Origin: a virus
IMG/VR virus record: IMGVR_UViG_3300046736_000171
Location: 1-40,329 of that record
DNA length: 40,329 nt
Reading direction: 5' to 3' (one strand)
Shown here: piece by piece, positions 1,903-40,329 of the stretch
Layout of the letters: every line of letters starts with the position of its first letter
How positions within the stretch are numbered: position 1 is the first letter of the stretch
The notes under the pieces: model-generated
Told to the model about the DNA's origin: nothing
The model's database searches: none
Seen by the model: only the letters and a program-made list of their open reading frames with translations
Position numbers and translations under genes: made by a program

Positions 1903-3888
1903 ATGCCAAACCCAATAACGATTGACTTTGAAACGGATGCAATTGTAGGCAACCCGATTGTATCGCCACCTACCCCCGTCGGTTGTGCTTTTCTGATCCC
2001 AGGCCAACAACCTTTTTATCTAGACTGGGGGCATCCAGAATTTGAAGTAGGAGATCCAAAATATCCTAAAGGTTCCAAACGGAATTGTTCGTGGAGTAAA
2101 GCACATGAATATCTCGAAAAAATCGTTAGCAGTGGGGAAGATGTACTTTTTCATAATGCTGGCTTCGACCTCAGCGTTCTTAACGCAGCGTTTTGCAACG
2201 CCCGCTGGAATTGGATGGATAACAGTTGGCGTCGGGTTCACGATACTATGTATCTTTTGTTTTTGGCTGACCCTTACAGCACAACTCTCAGTCTTAAACC
2301 ATCAGCTGAAAGATACCTTGGAAAGCCTCCAATTGAACAGTCAGAACTTTACGATTGGATCGTTGCAAACGTTCCCGGTGCGACCCGTGCAACAGCTGGC
2401 GCATTCATATCTAAGGCTCCTGGTGATCTGGTGGCTCCTTACGCTGTTGGGGATGTGGTTCGTACCCGTGGTCTTTTTGATTTACTTCACGCAAAAATAG
2501 TTGAACAAGGGATGGAGGCCGCGTATGACCGAGAACGCCGCAATTTTCCTACGCTCGTCAACGCTACTCGTCGTGGGATTCGTATTGATAGAAATACTTT
2601 GGAATATCATACGGAGGTTTACGGAACGTGCTTGGAGGTTGCCACTGAAAGCCTTGCTGGTAGTTTGGGCTGCTCTGTGGGCGACCTTGGTGACGAGTCG
2701 TCTTTTGCTGACGCTCTCGAACGGTCAGGGGCTGTAACGGAATGGGTACTTACCCCCAAATCCAAAAAACGATCTATGTCTAAAGACAACCTTAAGATTG
2801 TCATACCGGAAGTTAAGATTTTAATGGAGTATAAAAGTGCGCTCGAAACCTGCCTCCAAACCTTCATGCGCCCCTGGCTGGCTCTTAGCGAAGCCGATGG
2901 CCGCCTGCACCCTAACTGGAACCAAGTCAAACAACCGAAAAATGGGGGTAACCCTTTCAGCCAAAAAGGCACCCGCACCGGCCGCCTCTCATCTGACAGT
3001 CCAAACTTTCAGAATGTGCCCACTGAGTTTAAAGATCAATTTGGAGCGCCTTTGGCAGTCCCCGATGGGCTACACCCACTGCCCTTCATGCGGCGGTATT
3101 GTCTTCCTGAAGAAGGACATGTGTGGCTTAAGCGCGACTTCTCTTCTCAAGAGATACGAATACTCGCGCACTTTGAAGATGGGTCACTTGCAACAGCTTA
3201 CCGGCTCAACCCAAATCTAGATCCACACCAAATGGCAGCAGATTTGATTGCTAATATCGTAGGATTAGTCTATGACAGGCCCGAAGTTAAAATCACTGGC
3301 TTTTCTATCATCTACGGAACAGGAGCTCCAGGCTTGTCAAGCCAGCTTGGGCGGCCAGTTCACGAAGCCGCGCAGATTAAATCTGCTTACCTTACGGCTA
3401 TGCCGGGTGTCTCTAGCCTGCAACGTGACGTTAAGTTGCGAGGCCAGTCAGGTCAACCAGTTCGAACGTGGGGTGGTAGAATCTATTACTCTGAACCTCC
3501 AAAAGAAATTGATGGAAGACTTCGGGACTTCGCTTATAAGCTGCTCAATTACCTCATTCAAGGAAGTGCGGCAGACCAAACGAAAGAAAGCATTGCAGAC
3601 TGGGAAGACACGCGCAAATGGCACGATATCTTCTTAGCGACAGTGCACGATGAAATAAACATCAGCGCCCCCAGGGAGCACGCATATGAAAGTATGCGGA
3701 CACTTAAACAATCCATGGAAAAGGACAGGCTGGACGTACCGATGCTGTCTGAAGGATTTATGGGCGAAAATTGGCAAGATTTAAAGTCTACTGATAAGCT
3801 GGAATCCAGAAATGATTACGAAAATCAATTTCATGGAAAAAATACGTCTACTGGACGGGGTGTGGGTAGAGGCGTCATGGATAACTGA
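1903..3888 (+). CDS. Family A DNA polymerase with 3'-5' exonuclease domain (661 aa)
   Basis: This is the replicative polymerase, a PolA/T7 gp5-type enzyme lacking the 5' nuclease domain. Exonuclease motifs are D8-x-E10 (IDFETD), N85-x3-D89 (FHNAGFD) and Y180-x3-D184 (YAVGD). Polymerase motifs are RTGRLSSDSPNFQNVP near 358-373, motif A RDFSSQEIR with D412, motif B K463-ITGF-SIIYG and motif C H582-D-E. Phe467 sits at the ribose-selecting position of the O-helix. All catalytic residues are present and the length suits the family. The ATG follows CAGGAG. A long folded leader precedes it and may regulate translation. It must accept whatever modified thymidine triphosphate the downstream cassette supplies. 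Confidence 0.96.
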   Translation: MPNPITIDFETDAIVGNPIVSPPTPVGCAFLIPGQQPFYLDWGHPEFEVGDPKYPKGSKRNCSWSKAHEYLEKIVSSGEDVLFHNAGFDLSVLNAAFCNARWNWMDNSWRRVHDTMYLLFLADPYSTTLSLKPSAERYLGKPPIEQSELYDWIVANVPGATRATAGAFISKAPGDLVAPYAVGDVVRTRGLFDLLHAKIVEQGMEAAYDRERRNFPTLVNATRRGIRIDRNTLEYHTEVYGTCLEVATESLAGSLGCSVGDLGDESSFADALERSGAVTEWVLTPKSKKRSMSKDNLKIVIPEVKILMEYKSALETCLQTFMRPWLALSEADGRLHPNWNQVKQPKNGGNPFSQKGTRTGRLSSDSPNFQNVPTEFKDQFGAPLAVPDGLHPLPFMRRYCLPEEGHVWLKRDFSSQEIRILAHFEDGSLATAYRLNPNLDPHQMAADLIANIVGLVYDRPEVKITGFSIIYGTGAPGLSSQLGRPVHEAAQIKSAYLTAMPGVSSLQRDVKLRGQSGQPVRTWGGRIYYSEPPKEIDGRLRDFAYKLLNYLIQGSAADQTKESIADWEDTRKWHDIFLATVHDEINISAPREHAYESMRTLKQSMEKDRLDVPMLSEGFMGENWQDLKSTDKLESRNDYENQFHGKNTSTGRGVGRGVMDN

Positions 3889-6888: not shown

Positions 6889-7099
6889 ATATGATCTAAC
6901 CGTTACGCTGGTTGAACATGAAATATTTGTTCAATCCCACACTTCCGCTGGTGTAGATTTTCTACTAGGCCCATTCAGGGAATTGCGACCAATATCGGCT
7001 GAGGAATTCGTGGCATCTATTCCCCCGGGACTTCGTGTGGGCCTTCTAAATCCAGAGACAAATCTTTTTGCTCAATTGCCACCAACGTCCTTGCATTGA
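6875..7099 (+). CDS. Hypothetical small protein (74 aa)
   Basis: The family is not recognised. The first half is beta-rich (YDLTVTLVEHEIFVQSHT) and is followed by a GPFRELRPISAEEF segment; there are no Cys clusters or membrane helices. It overlaps the helicase stop by 14 bases and has GGAAG about 7 bases before the ATG, so it belongs to the same transcript. A sigma70-like promoter begins inside its last codons, so it appears to be the last gene before a new transcription unit. Confidence 0.7.
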   Translation: MQTHEYDLTVTLVEHEIFVQSHTSAGVDFLLGPFRELRPISAEEFVASIPPGLRVGLLNPETNLFAQLPPTSLH

Positions 7100-7119
7100 G
7101 TAATGGTCCTTGCTATAGT
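7091..7119 (+). promoter_or_regulatory. Candidate sigma70-type promoter with extended -10
   Basis: TTGCAT at 7091-7096 and TATAGT at 7114-7119 are separated by 17 bases, and TGC immediately precedes the -10 (extended -10 element). It lies 67 bases before the ATG of the basic H1-like protein at 7186, whose gene is closed by a strong terminator at 7727. Motif match only; not tested. Confidence 0.6.
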
Positions 7120-7185
7120 GAAGATGCAAGATACGGGCAGCGGGCTGGGTTCAGGCTGTCCACCAATTTTAATCAGGAGATTGTG

Positions 7186-7704
7186 ATGACCGAAGCTAAG
7201 AAAGTTCCAGATCTGACGCCACCTGTCGGTGGCATTAAGAAGACGCCCAAGGCGACCTTAACGCCGACTCCAGTTAAGGAAGCCAAGCCCCCGAAGGCCC
7301 CTAAAGAACCCAAGGCCGCCAAGGTGCCGAAGGAATCTTCGGGTGCAGGCTCCCCCCGCCCCCGCAAATATGAATATGGCATTAAGGCTGATGCTCAGGT
7401 TGTTGTCATTCTTGAACAGGCAGAAGCCGCGAAGCGAGCCGGTGTTGCTAAGGCATATGAATATGCCAAGGCAAAGGAAGACGGTACGAATGTCACGGTT
7501 GATGAATTCTACAAGGCGGGTGGCAATCGCCATGACTTGCGGGTCATGTCCCGCCGGGGTCTGATTAAGATTGTTTGGACCACGGGTGAAACTTTCCCGC
7601 AGACGGCAGTGGCTAAAGTCCCCGAGGCTCCGAAGCCTGAGGATGCAGCGCCGCCGGCCCAACCCACGGCGCCAGTTACTGAAGGCACTCCTAACGCAAG
7701 CTAA
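7186..7704 (+). CDS. Basic Lys/Pro/Ala-rich H1-like protein, probable nucleic-acid binder (172 aa)
   Basis: The N-terminal third (about residues 5-58) is a Lys-Pro-Ala-rich tail with repeated PKxPKE units (KPPKAPKEPKAAKVPKE), resembling histone H1 or TolA-like linkers. The centre (60-145) is a folded basic domain (IKADAQVVVILEQAEAAKRAG...VTVDEFYKAGGNRHDLRVMSRRGLIKIVW) and the C-terminus is Pro/Ala rich. The ATG follows CAGGAG; the longer frame from 7096 is promoter region. It has its own promoter upstream and an intrinsic terminator directly after it, making a one-gene unit, which suggests strong or separately timed expression. DNA binding is inferred from composition; the domain family is not known to me. 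Confidence 0.8.
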   Translation: MTEAKKVPDLTPPVGGIKKTPKATLTPTPVKEAKPPKAPKEPKAAKVPKESSGAGSPRPRKYEYGIKADAQVVVILEQAEAAKRAGVAKAYEYAKAKEDGTNVTVDEFYKAGGNRHDLRVMSRRGLIKIVWTTGETFPQTAVAKVPEAPKPEDAAPPAQPTAPVTEGTPNAS

Positions 7705-7767: not shown

Positions 7768-8049
7768 GTGAAATACCCATGTGTAGAACTTTACTTTGAA
7801 GCAGAAACGGAAGGGGCACATATTCGTATTTGGCTGGCCACAGATAATGAACTGGTTGATTATGGGCCAAAGGTTGAGTACTTTCACAAATTACACAATC
7901 TACAGCTATTGATTAAATACCATAATCGCTTAGGAAATGACAAAATGATGGAAGTACTTGGAAAGCATCCAGACATTTCTGCCTTTCAGCTCATGCCGAA
8001 GTATATATCTAACAATATTGGTATAGTCGTCTATCGGGAGTGGCCATGA
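7768..8049 (+). CDS. Hypothetical protein preceding the kinase (93 aa)
   Basis: The family is not recognised. It is a small alpha/beta protein (CVELYFEAETEGAHIRIWLA, then a helical part with YFHKLHNLQLLIKYHNRL). I chose GTG 7768 because TGGAGG lies 7 bases upstream and the frame before it overlaps the terminator at 7727-7755. Its stop overlaps the kinase start (ATGA), so the two are translationally coupled and it may be the first gene of the modification cassette. Confidence 0.7.
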   Translation: MKYPCVELYFEAETEGAHIRIWLATDNELVDYGPKVEYFHKLHNLQLLIKYHNRLGNDKMMEVLGKHPDISAFQLMPKYISNNIGIVVYREWP

Positions 8050-8645
8050 AATCATACAATTTAAGAGGTACGAATGGAAGCGGCAAGACGTTCGTTGCTA
8101 GAGAATTGCTGAAGCAATCCAAAGGGGAGCCCTGCCTGTTTTTAGGCGCCAAAATCGCAGCCTATAAGGGTACTCTTTTTGGTGTACCATTCTATATCAT
8201 TGGATCGTACGCTACTCAATGCGGTGGCTGCGACACAATTCCAAAGGTCGCTTTGGTTGCGGACATTCTACGGGAGCTAATGACAAATAACGATATGTTT
8301 AATGTCTATACTGGTCCTGGTATCGTTTTCTTTGAGGGGTTGATGATTAGCCACATGCTGGGTACGGTCGGGGAAGTGCAAAAGCAGCTCGGCAAGCAAC
8401 ACAATGTTCTAGCGTTTCTAGATACCCCCTTAGATCTATGTGTCCAGCGTGTGATGCTTAGACGGGCAGCACGAGGGGACGAGCGGCCCTTCGATCCAAA
8501 GAATGTTATTAAGGATCATCCAAGGGTGAAATCTTGTATGGAAAATGCAATTCGGTATGGGTATAGAGTTCAGACAGTAAATCATCAAGACGCATTAAAT
8601 CAAGTTTTGCACGATCTAGAGATATTGAGTAAGGAAGTGTCATGA
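8046..8645 (+). CDS. P-loop kinase, probable 5-hydroxymethyl-deoxyuridine DNA kinase (199 aa)
   Basis: Walker A is GTNGSGKT (residues 8-15). A Cys-rich signature GSYATQCGGCDTI (53-65), a Walker-B-like strand IVFFEGLM (93-100) and FLDTPLDLC...RVMLRRAARGDERPFDP (124-147, lid-like arginines) follow. This set matches, from memory, the P-loop 5-hmdU DNA kinases of thymidine-hypermodifying phages, which activate 5-hmdU in DNA as a (pyro)phosphoester. Unlike some relatives, the helical partner is a separate protein encoded by the next gene, overlapping by 4 bases. The alternative is a deoxynucleotide monophosphate kinase; the CGGCDTI segment and the neighbour argue against it. The GGGAG site supports ATG 8046, not GTG 8040. 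Confidence 0.75.
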   Translation: MKSYNLRGTNGSGKTFVARELLKQSKGEPCLFLGAKIAAYKGTLFGVPFYIIGSYATQCGGCDTIPKVALVADILRELMTNNDMFNVYTGPGIVFFEGLMISHMLGTVGEVQKQLGKQHNVLAFLDTPLDLCVQRVMLRRAARGDERPFDPKNVIKDHPRVKSCMENAIRYGYRVQTVNHQDALNQVLHDLEILSKEVS

Positions 8646-9517
8646 TTAATTACAAGGAGCTATTTCAATACTGGATCAGTGAACGGGAAGCCATAAGAAT
8701 TGAAAAAGAGCAAGAACACTTAAAGCCTTGGTCTAGTGACCCAGTATTTCAAACTACTTATTTCTGTAATGTTAACAGAGAAAATGACAAAGTTACCAAG
8801 TGGATTCGTGAGAATTGGTCAATCCAGAAACTGGGATTGGACACTTATGAGTACGCAATGGTGCTCGCACGCTTTCTGAACTGGCCCCCAACCCTAGATT
8901 GCCTTACAGATCATAATGGGGATGTATGCATTTTACCAGAACAAGTGGAATCTACAATTACGAACTTGGCTAAGTTGGGGTTCAAAGTCTGGGGCAATGC
9001 CTACGTGATTACCTCTCACGGTATGCGTATGCCTAAAGCCACCTACCTATGCCAGCACCTACTCCCTGACGTTTATAGAGCCCTACCGGCGCTCAAAGCC
9101 GCAGGGGCGGTAGGTACCTGCGCGGCCATGGCGGGCGCCCTACAACGCATCACAGGCATTGGTAGCTTTCTGGCTGGCCAAATTGTAGCGGATCTAAAGA
9201 ATACTGTGGGACACCCGCTCTACGCGGCTCCGGACAAATTTAGTTTTGTCGTGCCCGGCCCTGGCAGCATACGAGGGTTAGCATGGTACCACTACGGTAA
9301 TGCCAATCAAATGTCTGAACGTACTTTTCAAGTACATTTTGACAAGTTGAGGGATGAAGTAAACGGATGGGGCCGCTTTGCCTATAATGGAGAAGTAGAA
9401 ATAGAATTCTGCCAAATTGATAGTCAAGATTTGCAAAATTGCCTGTGCGAATTTGATAAATATTGTCGGGTAAAATTCGGTACAGGCCGCAGTAAGCGGC
9501 AGTATCAAGGAGTATGA
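8642..9517 (+). CDS. HMUDK_hel / alpha-glutamyl-putrescinyl-thymine pyrophosphorylase-like helical protein (291 aa)
   Basis: Signature blocks are KPWSSDPVFQTTYFCNVNRENDKVTKWIRENW (29-59, split here by its conserved FCNVxREND core), LARFLNWPPTL (75-85), GNAYVIT (118-124), a helix-hairpin-helix-like block GIGSFLAGQIVADL (172-185), and APD...VPGPGSIRGL (196-213). These are the hallmarks of the helical family linked to 5-hmdU kinases and the pyrophosphorylases that swap an activated hydroxymethyl group for an amine or amino acid in hypermodified thymine. The start overlaps the kinase stop (ATGA). I cannot tell whether it is only the kinase's DNA-binding helical half or a true pyrophosphorylase. 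No extra catalytic domain is fused. Confidence 0.75.
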   Translation: MINYKELFQYWISEREAIRIEKEQEHLKPWSSDPVFQTTYFCNVNRENDKVTKWIRENWSIQKLGLDTYEYAMVLARFLNWPPTLDCLTDHNGDVCILPEQVESTITNLAKLGFKVWGNAYVITSHGMRMPKATYLCQHLLPDVYRALPALKAAGAVGTCAAMAGALQRITGIGSFLAGQIVADLKNTVGHPLYAAPDKFSFVVPGPGSIRGLAWYHYGNANQMSERTFQVHFDKLRDEVNGWGRFAYNGEVEIEFCQIDSQDLQNCLCEFDKYCRVKFGTGRSKRQYQGV

Positions 9518-9518
9518 A

Positions 9519-9872
9519 ATGTTTAAACTCTTCGTTATAACAACCTACGGCGTGCATTCAGGGGCTGGAGTTCATACTACAGTAGTGAAGTTTAAGGATA
9601 GGGACTTAGCAGAAAAATTTTGCAAAGTTGTGACAGATAGAACGTCGCCATACGTTGGAGTTGAAGTTATTAGACTTTATGAGGAACATAAAGTGACAAT
9701 TAAGAATGCAGAACCTATGGGAGATGTTCAACTTGAACGGTTACGCCGTAAGCGGGACCAAGCATGGGACATGGCTGGATTAGCGCGTAAAGATGGAGAT
9801 GAAGTGGCTGAACAAACTCGCACAGAAGAAGCCCGAAACTATGAATGTCTAATTAGGGAATATCTATCATGA
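9519..9872 (+). CDS. Unknown protein inside the modification cassette (117 aa)
   Basis: The family is not recognised. Residues 1-50 look like a small alpha/beta domain (KLFVITTYGVHSGAGVHTTVVKF...LAEKFCKVV); residues 68-117 are a charged helix (LERLRRKRDQAWDMAGLARKDGDE). It begins one base after the stop of the pyrophosphorylase-like gene, with AAGGAG 5-7 bases upstream, and its stop overlaps the dUMP hydroxymethylase start (ATGA). This tight placement makes it a candidate accessory or tailoring subunit. A short hairpin (GCCGC 9486-9490, GCGGC 9496-9500) lies just before its ribosome site. Confidence 0.75.
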   Translation: MFKLFVITTYGVHSGAGVHTTVVKFKDRDLAEKFCKVVTDRTSPYVGVEVIRLYEEHKVTIKNAEPMGDVQLERLRRKRDQAWDMAGLARKDGDEVAEQTRTEEARNYECLIREYLS

Positions 9873-10864
9873 ATACAATCAGCGGAAATAGTGCACCAGA
9901 AGTCTATACTGAAGCACTTTGGAAAGTTCCCCTCTGGGTGCTGCCTGAAAACAGTAGAAATGGGCCGGTACTTACTTGCCCGGAACCTGTATGCCTAGAG
10001 TTGACCAACCCGCTTCGTAGAGTATTGTTTGATCCAGTGCGAAAGGCCAATCCGTACTTCCATGTTATGGAATTCATATGGATGATGGCGGGAGACAATT
10101 CCACAAATTGGATTAGTCAATTCAATAAAGGGTTTAGAAATTATGCGGAGTTAGATGGTATGCACCATGGCGCCTATGGCCATCGGTGGCGAGAACATTT
10201 TGGTCATGATCAAATCCTACGTGCGGTAGATGAGCTTAAACTAAACCCTGAAAGTAGGAGGGTTACCATCAGTATGTGGGATCCCTCCTGTGATCAAGGA
10301 AGAAATGTCAAAGATGTGCCGTGTAATACGCATCTCTACCTAAGAATATTTGATGGTAGGCTGAATATGACCGTTTGCAATCGGTCAAATGACCTATTCT
10401 GGGGAATGCTCGGCAGCAACGTCGTCCATATGACGTTACTACAGGAGTTAATCGCAAATGCCTTGGGCATTCCCGTTGGGGTCTATCGAGTTATTACCAA
10501 CAACCTTCATGTCTATACTGAGATGCCACGGTTCGCAGAATTGTACGGGTCCAGGAACAGCCCTGATCTATATAAAGAACTGTGTTTGTCCCCATACAGG
10601 CTTCTGGCACCACACGAAGACATTGCAGATTTTCTAAGTGAATGCTACAACTTTATCCATAGTCCGAAAACTAGATATCAGTCTAGTTGGCTAACTGACG
10701 TAGCCCAGCCGATGTACTTTGACTATATGGATCGTCTGGGCAAGTTAAATAGTGATATGGACTGGCTTCCCTACATAGCTGCAGACGATTGGCGAAAGGC
10801 GTGTGAACTTTGGAGTGAATGGCATTACAATCCGGCTAAAAACATAGAGGAAAGAACAGCGTGA
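9869..10864 (+). CDS. Thymidylate synthase superfamily enzyme, probable dUMP hydroxymethylase (331 aa)
   Basis: The fold is thymidylate synthase-like: GAYGHRWR (101-108), an RR phosphate-binding pair (130-131), nucleophile Cys152 in VPCNTH, NRSNDLFWG (171-179, the RS-x-D phosphate/base site), Asn184 at the position that selects dUMP over dCMP, and NNLHVY (211-216, His and Tyr contacting the sugar). Compared with cellular ThyA, the His after the catalytic Cys is Asn and a Trp follows DLF, so it is divergent. Together with the adjacent 5-hmdU kinase-like genes, the best reading is 5-hydroxymethyl-dUMP synthesis from dUMP and methylene-tetrahydrofolate. Plain dTMP synthesis remains possible. Start and stop overlap both neighbours by 4 bases. 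Confidence 0.8.
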   Translation: MNTISGNSAPEVYTEALWKVPLWVLPENSRNGPVLTCPEPVCLELTNPLRRVLFDPVRKANPYFHVMEFIWMMAGDNSTNWISQFNKGFRNYAELDGMHHGAYGHRWREHFGHDQILRAVDELKLNPESRRVTISMWDPSCDQGRNVKDVPCNTHLYLRIFDGRLNMTVCNRSNDLFWGMLGSNVVHMTLLQELIANALGIPVGVYRVITNNLHVYTEMPRFAELYGSRNSPDLYKELCLSPYRLLAPHEDIADFLSECYNFIHSPKTRYQSSWLTDVAQPMYFDYMDRLGKLNSDMDWLPYIAADDWRKACELWSEWHYNPAKNIEERTA

Positions 10865-11331
10865 AAAACATCATAATTTGCGACATTGACGGTACGTTGT
10901 GCTCCGATGGACACAGAAATCATCTACTTCAAAACCCGAATAACCGGAAGTGGGATGAATATTTTGATTTATGCGACCAAGATCCCCCGGTGAAGGCAGT
11001 CATACAAGTACTTCGCCAATTTCACGGTTGCCAAATTTATGACAGCAACAAAATTGGACATGTCTATCGTGTTCACCTTATGACAGCCAGGGTTGAGCGA
11101 ATTAAACAGAAAACATTAGATTGGCTTGAGCAGCACGATGTCCCGTATGATGACATCACCTTTCGCCCCACTGACAGCAGGGTCCAAGACAATGTCCTCA
11201 AAACTCTCTGGGCTGACGCGCTTGGTGGACCCGACAGGGTATTATTTGTGCTCGAAGATCGTCAAAGAGTGGTTGATGCGTGGCGGCACGCGGGATACAC
11301 TTGTTTCCAAGTTGCTCCAGGTAATTTCTGA
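10861..11331 (+). CDS. HAD-superfamily phosphatase resembling the Pnkp 3'-phosphatase domain (156 aa)
   Basis: HAD motif I is DIDGT (D8, D10), motif II is LMTAR (Thr) and motif IV is VLEDRQRVVDAWR, closing with CFQVAPGNF. The end pattern (DR-x2-VV-x2-W-R...G-x2-C-x-QV-x2-G-x-F) is that of the phosphatase half of T4 polynucleotide kinase-type proteins; the kinase half is absent. Plausible substrates are 3'-phosphate DNA ends or a nucleotide/phosphoester in the thymidine-modification pathway. It starts with GTG overlapping the hydroxymethylase stop, so it is translated with the cassette. The fold is confident; the substrate is inferred. Confidence 0.82.
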   Translation: MKNIIICDIDGTLCSDGHRNHLLQNPNNRKWDEYFDLCDQDPPVKAVIQVLRQFHGCQIYDSNKIGHVYRVHLMTARVERIKQKTLDWLEQHDVPYDDITFRPTDSRVQDNVLKTLWADALGGPDRVLFVLEDRQRVVDAWRHAGYTCFQVAPGNF

Positions 11332-11341
11332 GGAAAATGCA

Positions 11342-11989
11342 ATGTCAAGAACTGAAAAATTGGGTTTTATAGACGTTTACGTAGAGCATATAGGGGGAAT
11401 GGTTACAAAGATTCAAAAAGCAGGGGTGGTCATTTGGCCAGCGGAGCCCCATACTACAGGTACGGAACCTATGCTTGGCCGAAGCACAGATAGAGCTGCT
11501 CAAATTAAGGCAATAATGGAATATGATGAATCTGCACGAAAAAAGGCAAATGATAGTATGGTTGGAGGTAATCACTACCGCATTCCTGATGCTGAGGGTA
11601 AATGCCCCCATTGCCATAAGGCAATTCAGCATTGGGACTGGGCTTACAATCTAAGGGGATTGGAATATGCGGCTACGAAATATATTGCTAGATGGCGGGC
11701 TAAGGGCGGTCTGGAATCTCTTAAGAAAGCCATTCACTATATTCAGAAAATTATCGAAATCAACTTTCCATGGGCCACGGTTACAATTACCATTCACGAA
11801 CAGCCTGGAAAAGACAAGGCTAGAAATGACGCAGAACTTGCGGCGGCCCACACTAATAGTGAGTGCATCCAAACAAACGCCAAGCGAGAAGCTGAAAGCT
11901 GCGCGGGCATGGATGGCCTCAAATCGGAGGATCCGCATGCGTGGATGGTCGCAGGAAAACGTGTAAAAACTAAAGATGATAGATTTTAA
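11342..11989 (+). CDS. DUF3310-containing protein with a CPHC insertion (215 aa)
   Basis: Residues 75-140 match the DUF3310 (SaV-like) pattern: VGGNHY (74-79), YNLRGLEYAATKYIARWRAKGGLESLKKAIHYIQKIIE (102-139; named here only by its YAATKYIxRWRxKGG core). This family is often labelled nucleotide kinase without direct proof. Unusual are the CPHC pair (88-91) inserted in the motif, a 70-residue N-terminal part and a charged C-terminal tail. ATG 11342 is preceded by GAGGA; the frame open from 11126 lies over the HAD gene and is a shadow. It is the last gene of the rightward operon and may act on nucleotides. Confidence 0.75.
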   Translation: MSRTEKLGFIDVYVEHIGGMVTKIQKAGVVIWPAEPHTTGTEPMLGRSTDRAAQIKAIMEYDESARKKANDSMVGGNHYRIPDAEGKCPHCHKAIQHWDWAYNLRGLEYAATKYIARWRAKGGLESLKKAIHYIQKIIEINFPWATVTITIHEQPGKDKARNDAELAAAHTNSECIQTNAKREAESCAGMDGLKSEDPHAWMVAGKRVKTKDDRF

Positions 11990-20027: not shown

Positions 20028-20455
20028 TAAAATCCCATCATTGTGGGAGCTTTAATCCCGCCTGTTGGCCGAAACATTCCCATCTTTGCGGGAGGCTGAA
20101 TTTGCGACAACGGCTGTCCAGTACCGGACAGTGGCTCTGGTCCCCCCATCCCTGCTTGGGGTCCGCCAATAGCAGGATTTCCGCGAAGCGCAGCCACCTG
20201 CGCCATCTGGGCAGCAAATGGATTATCCACGTAATTCTTCCCGCCAGGGGCACCACCAAACCGAACAGTAGGTCCAGGTTGTCCAATCTGGGGTTTCAAA
20301 CTATTATCTACTGGCTGAGCCCCTGGTGGTAGCTGAGGTTTAGAATAAAAATTCAGGGGATCCCCGTAGCTTCCACCAGTTTGCTTTCGCAACTGGTTAC
20401 CGATGGGATCGATAACCTTCGTAACCTTCTTGAGTTTTTTGCTTAACCAACTCAT
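20027..20455 (-). CDS. Pro/Gly-rich virion-associated protein (142 aa)
   Basis: A short basic helix (MSWLSKKLKKVTKVIDPIGNQLRKQ) is followed by a Pro/Gly/Gln-rich, probably disordered chain (PGAQPVDNSLKPQIGQPGPTVRFGG...). I chose ATG 20455 (GGAGGATC about 8 bases upstream, overlapping the GNAT stop) over ATG 20479. The basic amphipathic start could bind membrane or DNA. It lies at the head of the internal-protein gene block. No family is recognised. Confidence 0.65.
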   Translation of the reverse strand: MSWLSKKLKKVTKVIDPIGNQLRKQTGGSYGDPLNFYSKPQLPPGAQPVDNSLKPQIGQPGPTVRFGGAPGGKNYVDNPFAAQMAQVAALRGNPAIGGPQAGMGGPEPLSGTGQPLSQIQPPAKMGMFRPTGGIKAPTMMGF

Positions 20456-20871
20456 GCTGTGATCCTCCGGGGAAGCCACCTACACTGATCGAGGCGCATT
20501 TCCTGGATGACCATGTCGGTTCCAAGACTCCAACCGTCTTTTACTCTATAGGTCTCTACGAACCCTATCTTACGGTTGAACTCTAAAGCTCGCTTATTAT
20601 CACCTGGAGTTACGCCGATTACAAGATTCCGACCGTTGTTAAACGGATACGAAAATGCTTCCTGTATAAATTCTCTATCTAAGTAGGCTTCTGGATGTTT
20701 TATCCAAATGTGCATCTGTACAGCATTGTGGGTCCAAAAGTCATAGCCAACCATAGCCCGCAATTCCCCATCAACAGTAGTGAGCTTTATTCCCTTAAAA
20801 TTTTGAGTAGGAACATAAGAAGTTGCAGACATAAATTCTGCAAGATCATCCGCATTTGTAGCTTCTATCAT
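20452..20871 (-). CDS. GNAT-type acetyltransferase-like protein (139 aa)
   Basis: The order of elements fits a short GNAT fold: an N-terminal helix region, central strands (ELRAMVGYDFWTHNAVQMHIWI), a helix with YPFNNGRNLVIGVTPGDN and the typical C-terminal NKRALEFNRKIGFVETYRV (Asn-x2-Ala-x3-Arg-x2-GF), ending with a strand. Proteins of this type are common between tail nozzle and internal virion protein genes of podoviruses; their substrate is unknown. The ATG overlaps the nozzle gene stop (ATGA). Confidence 0.75.
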   Translation of the reverse strand: MIEATNADDLAEFMSATSYVPTQNFKGIKLTTVDGELRAMVGYDFWTHNAVQMHIWIKHPEAYLDREFIQEAFSYPFNNGRNLVIGVTPGDNKRALEFNRKIGFVETYRVKDGWSLGTDMVIQEMRLDQCRWLPRRITA

Positions 20872-22490
20872 AGCATGTTCCCCGTTGTGAACATTAAATC
20901 ATGGCGCACTAGAATAGTTTCAGCTCCTGACTGTCCATTCAGTGCTATCGCCATGGCCCTACCAATCCCATCAGCTCCTTGGGGGTTATCGGCAGTTATA
21001 AAGTCGCCACCCCACAAACTTAGATCCCAAATACCAACATCCCATAAAGTTCCAGAAGAACTACCTCCAGGAACTATTGATCCAGAAGCAGCAGAAAGAT
21101 TGTAATCAAAATGTATTTCAACTCCATATGCAGGAACCTGTTCTGAAATAAATACTGGACGAACATACTGGGGAATGTGATAAAGTCCAGGTTCTCCAAC
21201 ATCAGAAAATGCCTGCAAAACAGACCAGGAGATTAAAGTAGAAGTTAAACCATTAAGACTCACGTTGTCCAAATTATCTTGAAGGATGTATGCAGTACCA
21301 TTCGCGGCCGCAATGTAGAAATTACCGTGCCATTCTTCCCCATTTAGATAAGGAATATCCCGATAAATACTCCAGCCTTGGTTATTCGTGCTCTGGGCAA
21401 ATTGTGAGAATGGAAAAGCCTCCCGTTTGGGAGTTGAGATTATAAGCGTATTCTCCTTAGAAATTAACTTAACTTCCCAACCACGAGTTGTTCTAGTAGA
21501 AGACATTTCTAAATTAACTAGCGGAGTTATTTTTCTGGACAAATAAGTCTGCTCAGCCTGAACTAGCTGCCCAGAAACAAGGCTGGACATCGGCAGAAGT
21601 CCATAGCTCGAGAGTAAACATAATTCACCCCCAAAACTTCCACCTATCCGCCTACCTACGGGGGGCGGGCCAATAAACCAGACACCATGCTGCTCAAAAT
21701 CAGTTGCTACAGATGGATCACTTCCCTTATAGACTACTACATCCCCACCGGAGCTGACTGCTACTAAGTAATCGTCTACCCCCTGACCGCCATCCACTGT
21801 CCAATTAAATAATGCTTCTAACGTACCGCCCTTCTTAAATTTATTACCGAAGTTAAATACTGTAGCTGCGCCGAAAATTGAACCTGTTGGAAGATACCAT
21901 GCCCGAGCAGAATTACGTTCAACAAACCACGCCCGTTCCTTGAATATCGTAACAGCGACAAAAAGATCTGGATCAATGTTAGCTACTTGATTGGCGCCGC
22001 CACCGAGGGCAACTTTCGCCCAGGCCCCAGCTTCAGTATAGACATAATATCCATTCTGTTCATCGCAGTATAAACTGAAATGGCCTGCCACAGTCGTATA
22101 GGCAGTCCAAATACCAAATCCAGACACGGACGTAGCGGATGGAAAAGCTAAAAGAAGTGCAGGCGCAGTTCCTGTAGAACTTATGTCATAAAATCCGGCT
22201 TGCCCAACCGCAAAAAGCTTATCATTAGCAGATACAGACGCGGTATATGGAATTATAGTTCTAACACCATTAACATCAACGCTCGTTACCCATTCTTTGT
22301 ATCCAGTTCTAACACGGGTACCGTACTGAGACGGCGCCATATTATACATGAATATCGCCTCTTCAGGCGACATTGCTATCAAACCATCTACTGCATTGAT
22401 CCCCTTCTGGGGCGCAGGTATCGGTGTAGATTGAGTAATTTGCTTGATCGGCGCAACTGGGAACGGGCGCCTACCGGGGGAGAATAACAT
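20868..22490 (-). CDS. Tail nozzle / hub protein (540 aa)
   Basis: A large beta-rich protein with many repeated strand-turn elements (DKLFAVGQAGFYDIS, GDVVVYKGSDPS, GGELCLLSSYGLLPMSSLVSG) suggestive of a beta-propeller-like platform. The N-terminal segment (PAPQKGINAVDGLIAMSPEEAIFMYNMAPSQYGTRVRTGY; only its GINAVDGL...EEAIxMYNM core matters) is a hallmark of podovirus nozzle proteins (T7 gp12 / P22 gp10-type). It follows the adaptor gene with overlapping stop and start (TAATG), the usual order for these two tail-tube parts. Confidence 0.8.
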   Translation of the reverse strand: MLFSPGRRPFPVAPIKQITQSTPIPAPQKGINAVDGLIAMSPEEAIFMYNMAPSQYGTRVRTGYKEWVTSVDVNGVRTIIPYTASVSANDKLFAVGQAGFYDISSTGTAPALLLAFPSATSVSGFGIWTAYTTVAGHFSLYCDEQNGYYVYTEAGAWAKVALGGGANQVANIDPDLFVAVTIFKERAWFVERNSARAWYLPTGSIFGAATVFNFGNKFKKGGTLEALFNWTVDGGQGVDDYLVAVSSGGDVVVYKGSDPSVATDFEQHGVWFIGPPPVGRRIGGSFGGELCLLSSYGLLPMSSLVSGQLVQAEQTYLSRKITPLVNLEMSSTRTTRGWEVKLISKENTLIISTPKREAFPFSQFAQSTNNQGWSIYRDIPYLNGEEWHGNFYIAAANGTAYILQDNLDNVSLNGLTSTLISWSVLQAFSDVGEPGLYHIPQYVRPVFISEQVPAYGVEIHFDYNLSAASGSIVPGGSSSGTLWDVGIWDLSLWGGDFITADNPQGADGIGRAMAIALNGQSGAETILVRHDLMFTTGNML

Positions 22491-34301: not shown

Positions 34302-34484
34302 TCACCGCCGTCTGATCGGCCGGCTGTACCTCCTCCATACAGTCGGATGAATACGTTGAGGTGACACAGCCGGCCGATCAAACTGCGGTACGGGGCAATC
34401 GTAAAGCCCGCAAATGGTCAAGCTTCCCAGTACCGCCACAACGGTCACAGCAAATATCAATTTTTCGTACCATTTAAATTTCAT
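34302..34484 (-). CDS. Small membrane-anchored or exported protein with a tail read from an inverted repeat (60 aa)
   Basis: The N-terminus has a basic start and a hydrophobic segment (MKFKWYEKLIFAVTVVAVLGSLTICGL), either a signal or one membrane helix. Residues after about 36 are Arg/Pro-rich and are encoded by a perfect 15-bp inverted repeat, so the tail may not be important. The ATG overlaps the previous stop (ATGA) but the ribosome site is weak. It is the last gene of the middle operon. Confidence 0.5.
   Translation of the reverse strand: MKFKWYEKLIFAVTVVAVLGSLTICGLYDCPVPQFDRPAVSPQRIHPTVWRRYSRPIRRR
34313..34380. repeat. Perfect 15-bp inverted repeat
   Basis: TGATCGGCCGGCTGT (34313-34327) and its exact complement (34366-34380) are separated by 38 bases; ACCTC (34328-34332) and GAGGT (34358-34362) extend the pairing. 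It lies inside the 60-aa gene at the end of the middle operon and beside the AT-rich region. It could be a terminator-like or processing hairpin, or a protein-binding site. No T-tract is seen. Confidence 0.8.
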
Positions 34485-35305
34485 ACATCAAATATATCCT
34501 GTGCAATTTTGCTGAATACGCCCCTGGCTTCTTTTAGCATTCCCGCATGGTCGTGTACTTGAAGGGTTGTAGCCCGCTCCCGTTCAGGGTCGAACGCCTG
34601 CCATGCCCGGCAGAATTTGTCCATTTCTGGCCCCGCCCCCAGCCGGTCAACCCGAATACCTTCATGCATTTGGCGGTAGAATGCACGAAGAATGGGGGGC
34701 AGATCTTCTACCTTTCCCTTCCGAAGAGCATCTAGATTTTTCCTTACTTCTTCTACTGCCGCATGCTTCTTCTTAACCATCATCCCCGACAGGCGGAGGG
34801 TAATGGCGGAGCTGTAGGGCGAACTGTCGAGGGGCGTGCTCTTGGTTTTCTGTACAGCGTTGAATTGGGCCATGGCAGGGCCGAATACCTCAAGCATTAG
34901 CTCTATTTCAAATTCGTGCGGCACTTTGCGGCCTACCATCAGCCGGAATAAAGTCGTACAAATGCTGACTTCCCTGCGCGGCTTCTTTAGCCGCTCAGAA
35001 ATGGTGCGGGACATACCACTATCCAAGACAGAATACGCCTCCACGGGGACGTCCCAAGCCACGACAAGCTTAACCGCCCGGTTGGCCAGGATAATGGACC
35101 GCAGCCGATGCTGGCCGTCCAACAGCCAACGTTCGGGCACCGGACTCACCGCAATTGCCTGATGGGTTAGAAGGAACTTGCCACTGTCTATCGCCCTGGC
35201 AAGATGGGCGCATTTATGTTCCCGTAGCTCCCTATTTTCCGGATAATTTCTGCTTAGAAGGTCCGCTGCCAAGGCAGGGGTGACCTCAACTACTTCAAAG
35301 CGCAT
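34481..35305 (-). CDS. DGQHR / ParB-like protein (274 aa)
   Basis: Residues 7-75 resemble a ParB/Srx-like domain: ALAADLLSRNYPENRELREHKCAHLARAIDSGKF, and the signature LLDGQHRLRSI (61-71). The DGQHR motif occurs in ParB-like NTPase/nuclease folds and in DndB-type proteins. The rest is helical (KKPRREVSICTTLFRL..., AVEEVRKNLDALRKG). It may bind DNA near the candidate origin or help in replication or host control; the substrate is unknown. It sits in the middle operon between the small genes and the origin-like region. Confidence 0.75.
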   Translation of the reverse strand: MRFEVVEVTPALAADLLSRNYPENRELREHKCAHLARAIDSGKFLLTHQAIAVSPVPERWLLDGQHRLRSIILANRAVKLVVAWDVPVEAYSVLDSGMSRTISERLKKPRREVSICTTLFRLMVGRKVPHEFEIELMLEVFGPAMAQFNAVQKTKSTPLDSSPYSSAITLRLSGMMVKKKHAAVEEVRKNLDALRKGKVEDLPPILRAFYRQMHEGIRVDRLGAGPEMDKFCRAWQAFDPERERATTLQVHDHAGMLKEARGVFSKIAQDIFDV

Positions 35306-39298: not shown

Positions 39299-39505
39299 AT
39301 GGAAGACTTCACCCAAGATCCTGAGCAGCCACATGAACATTCCTGTGGAACAACGGCGACAGGAAAAATACTTGGGTATGGCTGCGGACACACTTGGACA
39401 CATGAAGGTATACGCAACGTTTCAAATAAGTATCGCGCCAATATGCATATGTGTCCAAGTTGCGGTAGAGGTCCTTGGTTTTACGTAATAAGTAGTGGAA
39501 AATGA
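39299..39505 (+). CDS. Small Cys/His-rich zinc-ribbon-like protein (68 aa)
   Basis: Cys/His pairs are spread over the protein: HEHSC (12-16), YGCGHTW (27-33) and CPSCGRG (52-58), enough for one or two zinc sites. AGGT lies about 10 bases upstream of ATG; the stop overlaps the MazG-like start (ATGA). Such small early zinc proteins often bind nucleic acid or host RNA polymerase. The exact role is unknown. Confidence 0.7.
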   Translation: MEDFTQDPEQPHEHSCGTTATGKILGYGCGHTWTHEGIRNVSNKYRANMHMCPSCGRGPWFYVISSGK

Positions 39506-39837
39506 ACAAGCTAACACTAGCCCAAGTTGAACGGATTGCTTTGCTGGTTGAAGAAGCTTCGGAGGTTATCCATGCTGCACAGAAAATAATTAGACACGGT
39601 TATCTATCCTATCACCCCAAATGCCCAAATTTCGATAATCGTGCGCAGCTTATTCGGGAACTAGGGGATTTTGCTGCCTCAGTTAGCTTGCTTATTCAAT
39701 CTGGGGATTTAGGGGAAAATGCAGCATACTCAATAAACTTAGAGTCAAAAGATAAATTGTGGAGGGTTCGAAAATATCTACATTCAGAAGATAATGTCGT
39801 ATTAGTCAATACGTTGCGTACCATAAAGGAGGATTAG
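39502..39837 (+). CDS. MazG-like nucleotide pyrophosphohydrolase (111 aa)
   Basis: An all-alpha NTP-pyrophosphatase pattern is visible: EEASEVIHAAQKIIRHG (17-33) supplies E18-x2-E21, and NRAQLIRELGDFAAS (46-60) supplies E53-x2-D56, the usual metal-binding quartet. The length suits a minimal single-domain MazG-like enzyme that cleaves (d)NTPs to (d)NMPs. In thymidine-modifying phages an enzyme of this class could remove dTTP or dUTP so that 5-hmdUTP is used instead; here that is inference. The start overlaps the previous stop. Confidence 0.75.
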   Translation: MNKLTLAQVERIALLVEEASEVIHAAQKIIRHGYLSYHPKCPNFDNRAQLIRELGDFAASVSLLIQSGDLGENAAYSINLESKDKLWRVRKYLHSEDNVVLVNTLRTIKED

Positions 39838-40112: not shown

Positions 40113-40312
40113 AGCCACCAAAAGAAGGTATACAGAAACTGCTAGAAATGGGGTACCAAGTGGATAGCTGGACTTACAGAAAGGGATGGTGGGTTGGGTA
40201 TGCCAGATATACACCCGCCATTTGCACAATCTGTATTGTTACGGGGAAGTTGTTGATAGAAGTTTGTAAACGTGTAGAATACGCAGAGGTTATCGGCAAT
40301 TTTGATGCCTAG
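40109..40312 (+). CDS. Hypothetical small protein spanning the window join (67 aa)
   Basis: A basic alpha/beta protein (MKPPKEGIQKLLEMGYQVDSWTYRKGWWVGYARYTPAICTICIVTGKLLIEV...). The N-terminal PKEGIQKLLEMGYQVDSW element looks like a small helical DNA- or protein-binding turn, but no family is recognised. Its last 110 bases are repeated at 1-110, because the genome is circular in the assembly. The next gene begins 8 bases after its stop on the circle. Confidence 0.7.
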   Translation: MKPPKEGIQKLLEMGYQVDSWTYRKGWWVGYARYTPAICTICIVTGKLLIEVCKRVEYAEVIGNFDA

Positions 40313-40329
40313 GGGGATTTATGGATCAA
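40203..40329. repeat. Terminal direct repeat, right copy
   Basis: Identical to positions 1-127. Removing one copy gives a circle of 40,202 bp. The copy includes the 3' end of the 67-aa gene and the first bases (ATGGATCAA) of the 97-aa gene. Confidence 0.95.

Follow-up and report, generated by a model that had tools for sequence, protein, structure and literature searches.

Bases derived from 5-hydroxymethyldeoxyuridine (5-hmdU) occur in the DNA of phages M6, ViI and phiW-14 (PMC6449724, PMC5977210), and the 5-HMUDK enzyme puts phosphate on 5-hmdU in DNA in vitro (PMC6457204). In the M6/YuA-like phages (Mesyanzhinovviridae; MP1412, SN1, M6), a 5-hmdU DNA kinase gene lies close to genes for a dUMP hydroxymethylase and for hel, a protein of family PF18723 (HMUDK_hel, formerly aGPT-PPlase1, a name in use in PMC9476957 and PMC9599517), and the same three-gene block is found in PaMx11 and Ab18, whose pathway leads from 5-PmdU through N-alpha-GlyT to 5-NmdU. 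The window analysed here, the whole 40,329 nucleotides of IMG/VR virus record IMGVR_UViG_3300046736_000171, contains a compact block that holds this trio, listed below with the other genes of the block. While kinase, hel and hydroxymethylase together are the known M6-like module, comparison of related loci reveals that hel is paired with either the kinase or a predicted glycosyltransferase, never both, and that the two partners have been swapped repeatedly. No prior description of this exclusive exchange was found in the literature searched, which did not extend to the main primary papers.

8040–8645, + strand: 5-hmdU DNA kinase homologue with P-loop GTNGSGKT, the GSYATQCGGCDT signature, FEGL and LDTP (HMUDK_HMUD1, E 1.2e-5)
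8642–9517, + strand: HMUDK_hel protein of the aGPT-PPlase1 clade, 291 amino acids (PF18723, 125.2 bits against a cut-off of 25, residues 6–280)
9519–9872, + strand: orphan open reading frame (ORF) of 117 amino acids (no Pfam family; PHROG 15108 at E 0.006)
9869–10864, + strand: dUMP hydroxymethylase-type homologue of thymidylate synthase (TS), 331 amino acids (phrog_5131, 3e-87; PCN motif, Asn184, no WxxW)
10861–11331, + strand: HAD phosphatase of the PNKP phosphatase-domain type, 156 amino acids (PF25109, 76.2 bits against 27.6; CDIDGT, a DxDGT motif)
11342–11989, + strand: DUF3310-type protein (phrog_5839, 6.5e-14; the start at 11342 is a guess, the frame being open from 11126)

An initial annotation had described the first five of these genes as a block with overlapping or nearly touching ends, and all five ORFs are confirmed; the junctions are 4-bp overlaps, except that hel and the 117-residue ORF lie 1 bp apart. 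The Pfam scores of hel, the TS homologue and the HAD lie well outside what chance would give, and the PHROG matches agree with the family assignments. The block, on balance best read as a thymidine-modification operon, runs on into the DUF3310 gene, which that annotation had not listed. In the M6/YuA-like cassette the kinase, hel and hydroxymethylase stand in the same order near polA, with 27–36% protein identity; kinase homologues adjoin hel and TS in Mesyanzhinovviridae, and Yuavirus (M6-like) and Abidjanvirus genomes contain the identical kinase-hel-TS gene set. M6-like phages add ADDT (PF18724, formerly aGPT-PPlase2), radical SAM and pyridoxal-phosphate (PLP) enzymes and an HD protein, none of which is recognised in the window, whereas the window has a PNKP-type HAD and, at 40 kb, is shorter than their roughly 60 kb. 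The window block likewise lacks the glycinyltransferase (PDB 8z2m), FAD enzyme and acetyltransferase of PaMx11/Ab18. Precedents for a small podovirus with parts of the set are Rhodoferax phage P26218, a Manatee Spring podovirus and the HTVC023P-type pelagiphages. P26218 and Podoviridae ctfPj964 (36–39 kb) have a related terminase, and their kinase and hydroxymethylase genes lie downstream of those for a polymerase and an SNF2-type helicase, but they combine ADDT with an HD protein (YfbR-like by its match in P26218) and have no hel in the region examined, whereas the window combines hel with HAD and has no ADDT. In the HTVC023P-type pelagiphages, small podoviruses too, TS and aG/PT-PPlase1 (that is, hel) lie close together, in some cases with a glucosyltransferase gene and a 5'-deoxynucleotidase nearby; the portion of PMC9599517 drawn on here regards the glucosyltransferase as additional and makes no mention of an exchange between kinase and glycosyltransferase.

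The pairing was surveyed across related loci. A hel-alignment scan of IMG/VR yields at least 557 hel homologues, and the census comprises 145 distinct loci with duplicates removed and sequence present on both sides. Profile searches of the fetched loci reveal that the gene beside hel usually encodes either the kinase or a ~275-residue protein with an invariant DDD motif. One member of the DDD-motif family lies above the TAGT cut-off (70 bits), and another, modelled with AlphaFold (mean pLDDT 89), matches GT-A glycosyltransferases, e.g. TarP and POMGNT1; we take this partner to be a putative TAGT-like GT-A glycosyltransferase. The glycosyltransferase is present in 79 loci, the kinase in 61, neither in five and both in none; the loci were gathered via hel, glycosyltransferase and kinase, and these overall frequencies are not unbiased. 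Hel accompanies all 79 glycosyltransferases and 57 of the 61 kinases, and ADDT lies nearby in 17 of the 61 kinase loci versus none of the 79 glycosyltransferase loci. Scans seeded with the glycosyltransferase place hel no more than 5 kb away in 71 of 73 loci, and scans seeded with the kinase do so in 72 of 80, with the two enzymes never together; the exclusion is not a sampling effect. No fused kinase-hel or glycosyltransferase-hel protein was found.

Loci with neither partner often contain another sugar-transferase-like gene, of GT4 type in L038, TAGT-like in L110 and GT4-like by eye in L082. The GT4-like genes of L038 (8724–9971) and L082 (4851–5999, judged only by eye) sit next to hel in the partner position and represent a second glycosyltransferase type. 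Upstream of hel and TS in L076 (702–2529) and L110 (4071–5949), a TAGT-like glycosyltransferase is joined by a radical SAM gene, recognised by its SPASM domain in Pfam in L076 and by eye in L110; this pair suggests further modification chemistry.

Several observations indicate that partners have been exchanged around a stable hel. First, the hel tree implies 10 switches of the partner label (bootstrap range 9–10), at least seven of them forced by supported branches, versus 18 when the labels are shuffled. Second, the window hel falls within a set of 12 of which 11 have glycosyltransferase partners (support 100/93), and the sister phages of the window, with capsid proteins 70–79% and portals about 50% identical to its own, carry the glycosyltransferase. 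Loci of this TAGT type (L007, L010, L011, L047 and others), whose capsid proteins are 72–79% identical to that of the window, have the same polA-SNF2-hel-TS-HAD-DUF3310 layout as the window with a TAGT-like GT-A glycosyltransferase in place of the kinase, and their predicted product is glycosyl-5-hmdU, chemically like base J. Third, the kinase locus L064 and L076, which has the glycosyltransferase and radical SAM genes, share hel, HD and DUF3310 proteins that are 79%, 81% and 92% identical. Conservation reaches 90% or higher at 29 positions of hel, in kinase and glycosyltransferase loci alike, and a single column discriminates weakly between the two classes. Since the conserved residues do not depend on the partner and the partner was swapped repeatedly, we infer that hel does one job for two chemistries. 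The Pfam name of PF18723 and the overlap of the kinase and hel genes would instead fit a kinase-specific subunit that was recruited to an unrelated job in the glycosyltransferase loci. Such a history is quite improbable, as each of many independent swaps would demand a change of job, the same positions are conserved with either partner, and the glycosyltransferase is the commonest partner in the census.

What hel itself does bears on the end product. The initial annotation had placed the 291-residue protein with the HMUDK_hel and aGPT-pyrophosphorylase families and had cast it as the enzyme that attaches an amine or amino acid, displacing the phosphate on kinase-activated 5-hmdU. The profile search agrees with the first part; the second is not supported, as the protein belongs to PF18723, while the characterised glycinyltransferase family is PF18724, which is absent from the genome. 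An attaching role has in its favour the historical name aGPT-PPlase1, the lack of a recognisable ADDT in several kinase- and hel-bearing genomes, and the structural comparison: in Foldseek searches the AlphaFold2 model of hel (mean pLDDT 90.8) has the 5-PmdU glycinyltransferase gp46 (8z2m, probability 0.98) as its best PDB match, alongside archaeal 8-oxoguanine glycosylases; the E-values are modest and the TM-scores low. These matches suggest an 8-oxoguanine-glycosylase-like (HhH-GPD) base-flipping fold in common with 8z2m, the roles having diverged; at the sequence level hel has no match in the PDB. Against an attaching role, ADDT is a gene of its own near the kinase/hel pair in Ab18-, MP1412- and M6-type phages, the Ab18 copy matching 8z2m (PaMx11 glycinyltransferase gp46) over its full length at E 1.7e-193, and the hel and ADDT profiles have no similarity and do not align. 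Hel is moreover present in all 79 glycosyltransferase loci, with no kinase or ADDT found in any of them; a transferase that relies on a phosphate leaving group does not explain a hel that stands beside a glycosyltransferase, not a kinase, in most relatives, and it is an unlikely account of the protein.

The hydroxymethylase and kinase of the M6-type pathway are present in the window, and its ADDT is without a match: neither Pfam PF18724 nor a custom profile finds ADDT in the closed genome, and no radical SAM, PLP or FAD enzyme matches among the roughly 50 window ORFs scanned. Pfam likewise finds no ADDT in several further kinase-bearing records. Since the genome encodes no recognised amino-acid:DNA transferase, modification would end in phospho-hmdU, or in a derivative made by an unrecognised enzyme; this outcome is more likely than the proposed amine or amino-acid step, which is not supported.

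The kinase assignment combines motifs and profiles. The GSYATQCGGCDTI signature named in the initial annotation spans kinase residues 55–67, and among 12 homologues G55, Y57, G63 and D65 are invariant, as are G10, G13, G15 and K16 of an intact P-loop core. Kinase and signature thus stand as first described, with a different start (GTG at 8040 instead of ATG at 8046, which gave 199 amino acids). The match to PF18748 (HMUDK_HMUD1; E-value listed above) scores 25.3 bits, just under the curated cut-off of 27, and the Kuttervirus kinase itself scores 373 bits. A hidden Markov model built from the window kinase and four metagenomic homologues retrieves the Kuttervirus HMUDK at E 9e-18, and this homology agrees with the suggested DNA kinase acting on 5-hmdU. 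PDB sequences return chance-level matches only. 5-hmdU DNA kinases in public records (H45, L004, L005, L277) are widely annotated as "terminase small subunit", apparently via the name of PHROG 800, and the kinase copy of Erwinia phage Bue1 scores 390 bits to Pfam HMUDK_HMUD1.

The TS homologue belongs, as described, to the thymidylate synthase superfamily (78 bits, cut-off 24.3), and its nearest sequence relatives are phage enzymes that bear the annotation dUMP hydroxymethylase or TS. When it is aligned with hydroxymethylase-type proteins and five annotated phage TSs, its catalytic C152 is seen to be followed by N153, as in phage hydroxymethylases, whereas three of the five TSs (T4-like, Arthrobacter, Bacteroides) have Cys-His instead. 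The paired tryptophans (WxxW) are lacking, and the pyrimidine-binding residue is Asn184 (dUMP-type), where the CMP enzyme MilA has Asp. These features fit a dUMP hydroxymethylase and not a canonical TS, in keeping with the proposed route to 5-hmdU, and together with the kinase they make 5-hmdU plus its phosphorylation on DNA a prediction well supported by homology. If the block instead served ordinary nucleotide metabolism, its genes would encode a true thymidylate synthase and a P-loop dNMP kinase and the DNA would be unmodified; the Pfam and PHROG labels of the TS homologue, the kinase score below the HMUDK_HMUD1 cut-off and a TS tree without firm separation of the groups would all fit. The chance of this is slim given the hydroxymethylase-type active site without WxxW, a best PDB match to the CMP hydroxymethylase MilA, the consistent association with hel, whose score is five times the Pfam cut-off, and orthologues in M6-like phages, whose T is proven to be hypermodified (PMC6449724). 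In Pelagibacter phage HTVC119P the annotated thymidylate synthase (L274:397-1245) carries Asp at the residue that sets the choice between uracil (Asn) and cytosine (Asp), and it may be a (d)CMP hydroxymethylase.

The remaining genes of the block are assigned with less detail. The described HAD phosphatase is present, matching HAD_PNKP (76 bits, cut-off 27.6). Across the 145 loci the slot after TS holds a YfbR-like HD 5'-deoxynucleotidase in 76 and HAD in 10, never both, and the HAD probably either replaces the HD protein as dNMP phosphatase or acts as a 3'-phosphatase when nicks left by 5-hmdU excision are repaired. A role as partner of the kinase was rejected, since, apart from the window, the census loci with HAD (10) all carry the glycosyltransferase. 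A gene of Rhizobium phage RHph_I65 (L039:1834-2322), located immediately before the ADDT, kinase, hel and TS genes and annotated as polynucleotide 5'-kinase/3'-phosphatase, was considered as a parallel to the HAD and discarded, its best Pfam match being an AAA_33 kinase with no phosphatase domain. The DUF3310 gene follows in 111 of the 145 loci; its product matches PHROG nucleotide-kinase families (1.4e-10 to 4e-5), scores 15.7 bits against Pfam DUF3310 (cut-off 24), and is possibly a (5-hmd)UMP kinase. The dNMP kinase T7 gp1.7 is a DUF3310 protein. For the 117-residue ORF no homologue was found in related loci, an apparent match in L038 not being upheld by phmmer.

Read from homology throughout, these assignments combine into a mechanism. 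The TS homologue would convert dUMP to 5-hydroxymethyl-dUMP, which the DUF3310 protein and host kinases would raise to the triphosphate while the HAD phosphatase, with a MazG protein, clears competing dTMP and dNTPs. The phage polymerase would then incorporate 5-hmdU into DNA, where kinase and hel would convert it to 5-phosphomethyl-dU. Hel is probably a partner-independent 5-hmdU-presenting subunit: a protein of DNA-glycosylase fold that would bind DNA and offer the 5-hmdU base to the adjacent partner enzyme, the kinase in the window and the TAGT-like glycosyltransferase in the sister phages. The predicted end base is accordingly partner-dependent, 5-phosphomethyl-dU or a derivative in the window and a base-J-like glycosyl-hmdU in the sisters. 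We assign a probability of roughly 60% to the mechanism overall, i.e. hydroxymethylase, polymerase, and kinase with hel as base-presenting subunit, and no amine transferase. The wider proposal, that hel is a universal presenter whose kinase or TAGT partner is exchanged as a cassette, so that phages with related capsids bear phosphorylated or glycosylated 5-hmdU and the final base of the window is 5-phosphomethyl-dU itself, is plausible and more tentative.

Five observations weigh against this reading. Four kinase loci, including P26218 and ctfPj964, are without hel, which is therefore not always required by the kinase. The TS tree has long branches and does not set the hydroxymethylases firmly apart from canonical TS (p-AU 0.385 for grouping them), and active-site residues were used as the criterion because the tree is not decisive. 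The fold of hel resembles the ADDT glycinyltransferase as much as DNA glycosylases, at low TM-scores, which makes a transferase role conceivable. Pfam missed ADDT copies in L108 and L242 that the custom profile recovered, and very divergent forms could escape. Finally, the proposed roles of HAD and DUF3310 derive from gene position and distant homology.

The role of hel is not settled by its family name, and the swapped, exclusive pairing makes base delivery by hel testable. The clean replacement of the kinase by a sugar-adding gene in the sisters suggests a modular DNA-disguise system. If this is true, partner exchange would give phages a quick route to alter their DNA chemistry under restriction pressure, and environmental phages would be predicted to contain glycosyl-5-hmdU, a relative of trypanosome base J, as well as terminal phospho-hmdU. 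Bacterial viruses of the glycosyltransferase lineage would then have base-J-like DNA, and the enzymes could serve as new tools for 5-hmdU labelling.

Outside the block, three features of the window bear on these proposals:

1–127, + strand: left copy of the terminal direct repeat, an exact match to the right copy at 40203–40329
1903–3888, + strand: DNA polymerase I-type polymerase (phrog_17, 1.5e-85)
39502–39837, + strand: MazG-like NTP pyrophosphohydrolase (phrog_4856, 5.6e-13; PF03819, 21.5 bits, just below the cut-off of 22)

The exact 127-bp direct repeat at both ends of the 40,329-nt record identifies a closed, complete genome of ~40.2 kb; gene absences are therefore meaningful, and a fragment, in which the absence of ADDT would mean nothing, is ruled out. 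Upstream of the block lie polA, a PD-(D/E)XK nuclease, an SNF2 helicase and a basic Lys/Pro-rich protein. The polymerase is the likely user of 5-hmdUTP, and the MazG-like protein near the right end possibly acts on the nucleotide pool; in locus L021 hel and TS are separated by a MazG homologue. The late genes are on the opposite strand. The description of the virus as a podovirus gains indirect support from a portal resembling the Myxococcus phage Mx8 portal, a terminase closest to those of Rhodoferax podovirus P26218 and pelagiphages, and the lack of a tape-measure match among the window ORFs scanned. No tRNA genes were found in the window, and a nucleotide search of the phage collection returned no close relatives.

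Further genes were observed in the window. The gene for the basic Lys/Pro-rich protein (7096–7704) is kept just upstream of the cassette in kinase and glycosyltransferase loci alike. An acyl-CoA N-acyltransferase-like gene (20452–20871, − strand; phrog_4470) adjoins an amidase gene (20868–22490), and both are kept in several relatives. Lastly, the gene at 34481–35305 (− strand) has a ParB-like N-terminal match in PHROGs, here in a small phage.

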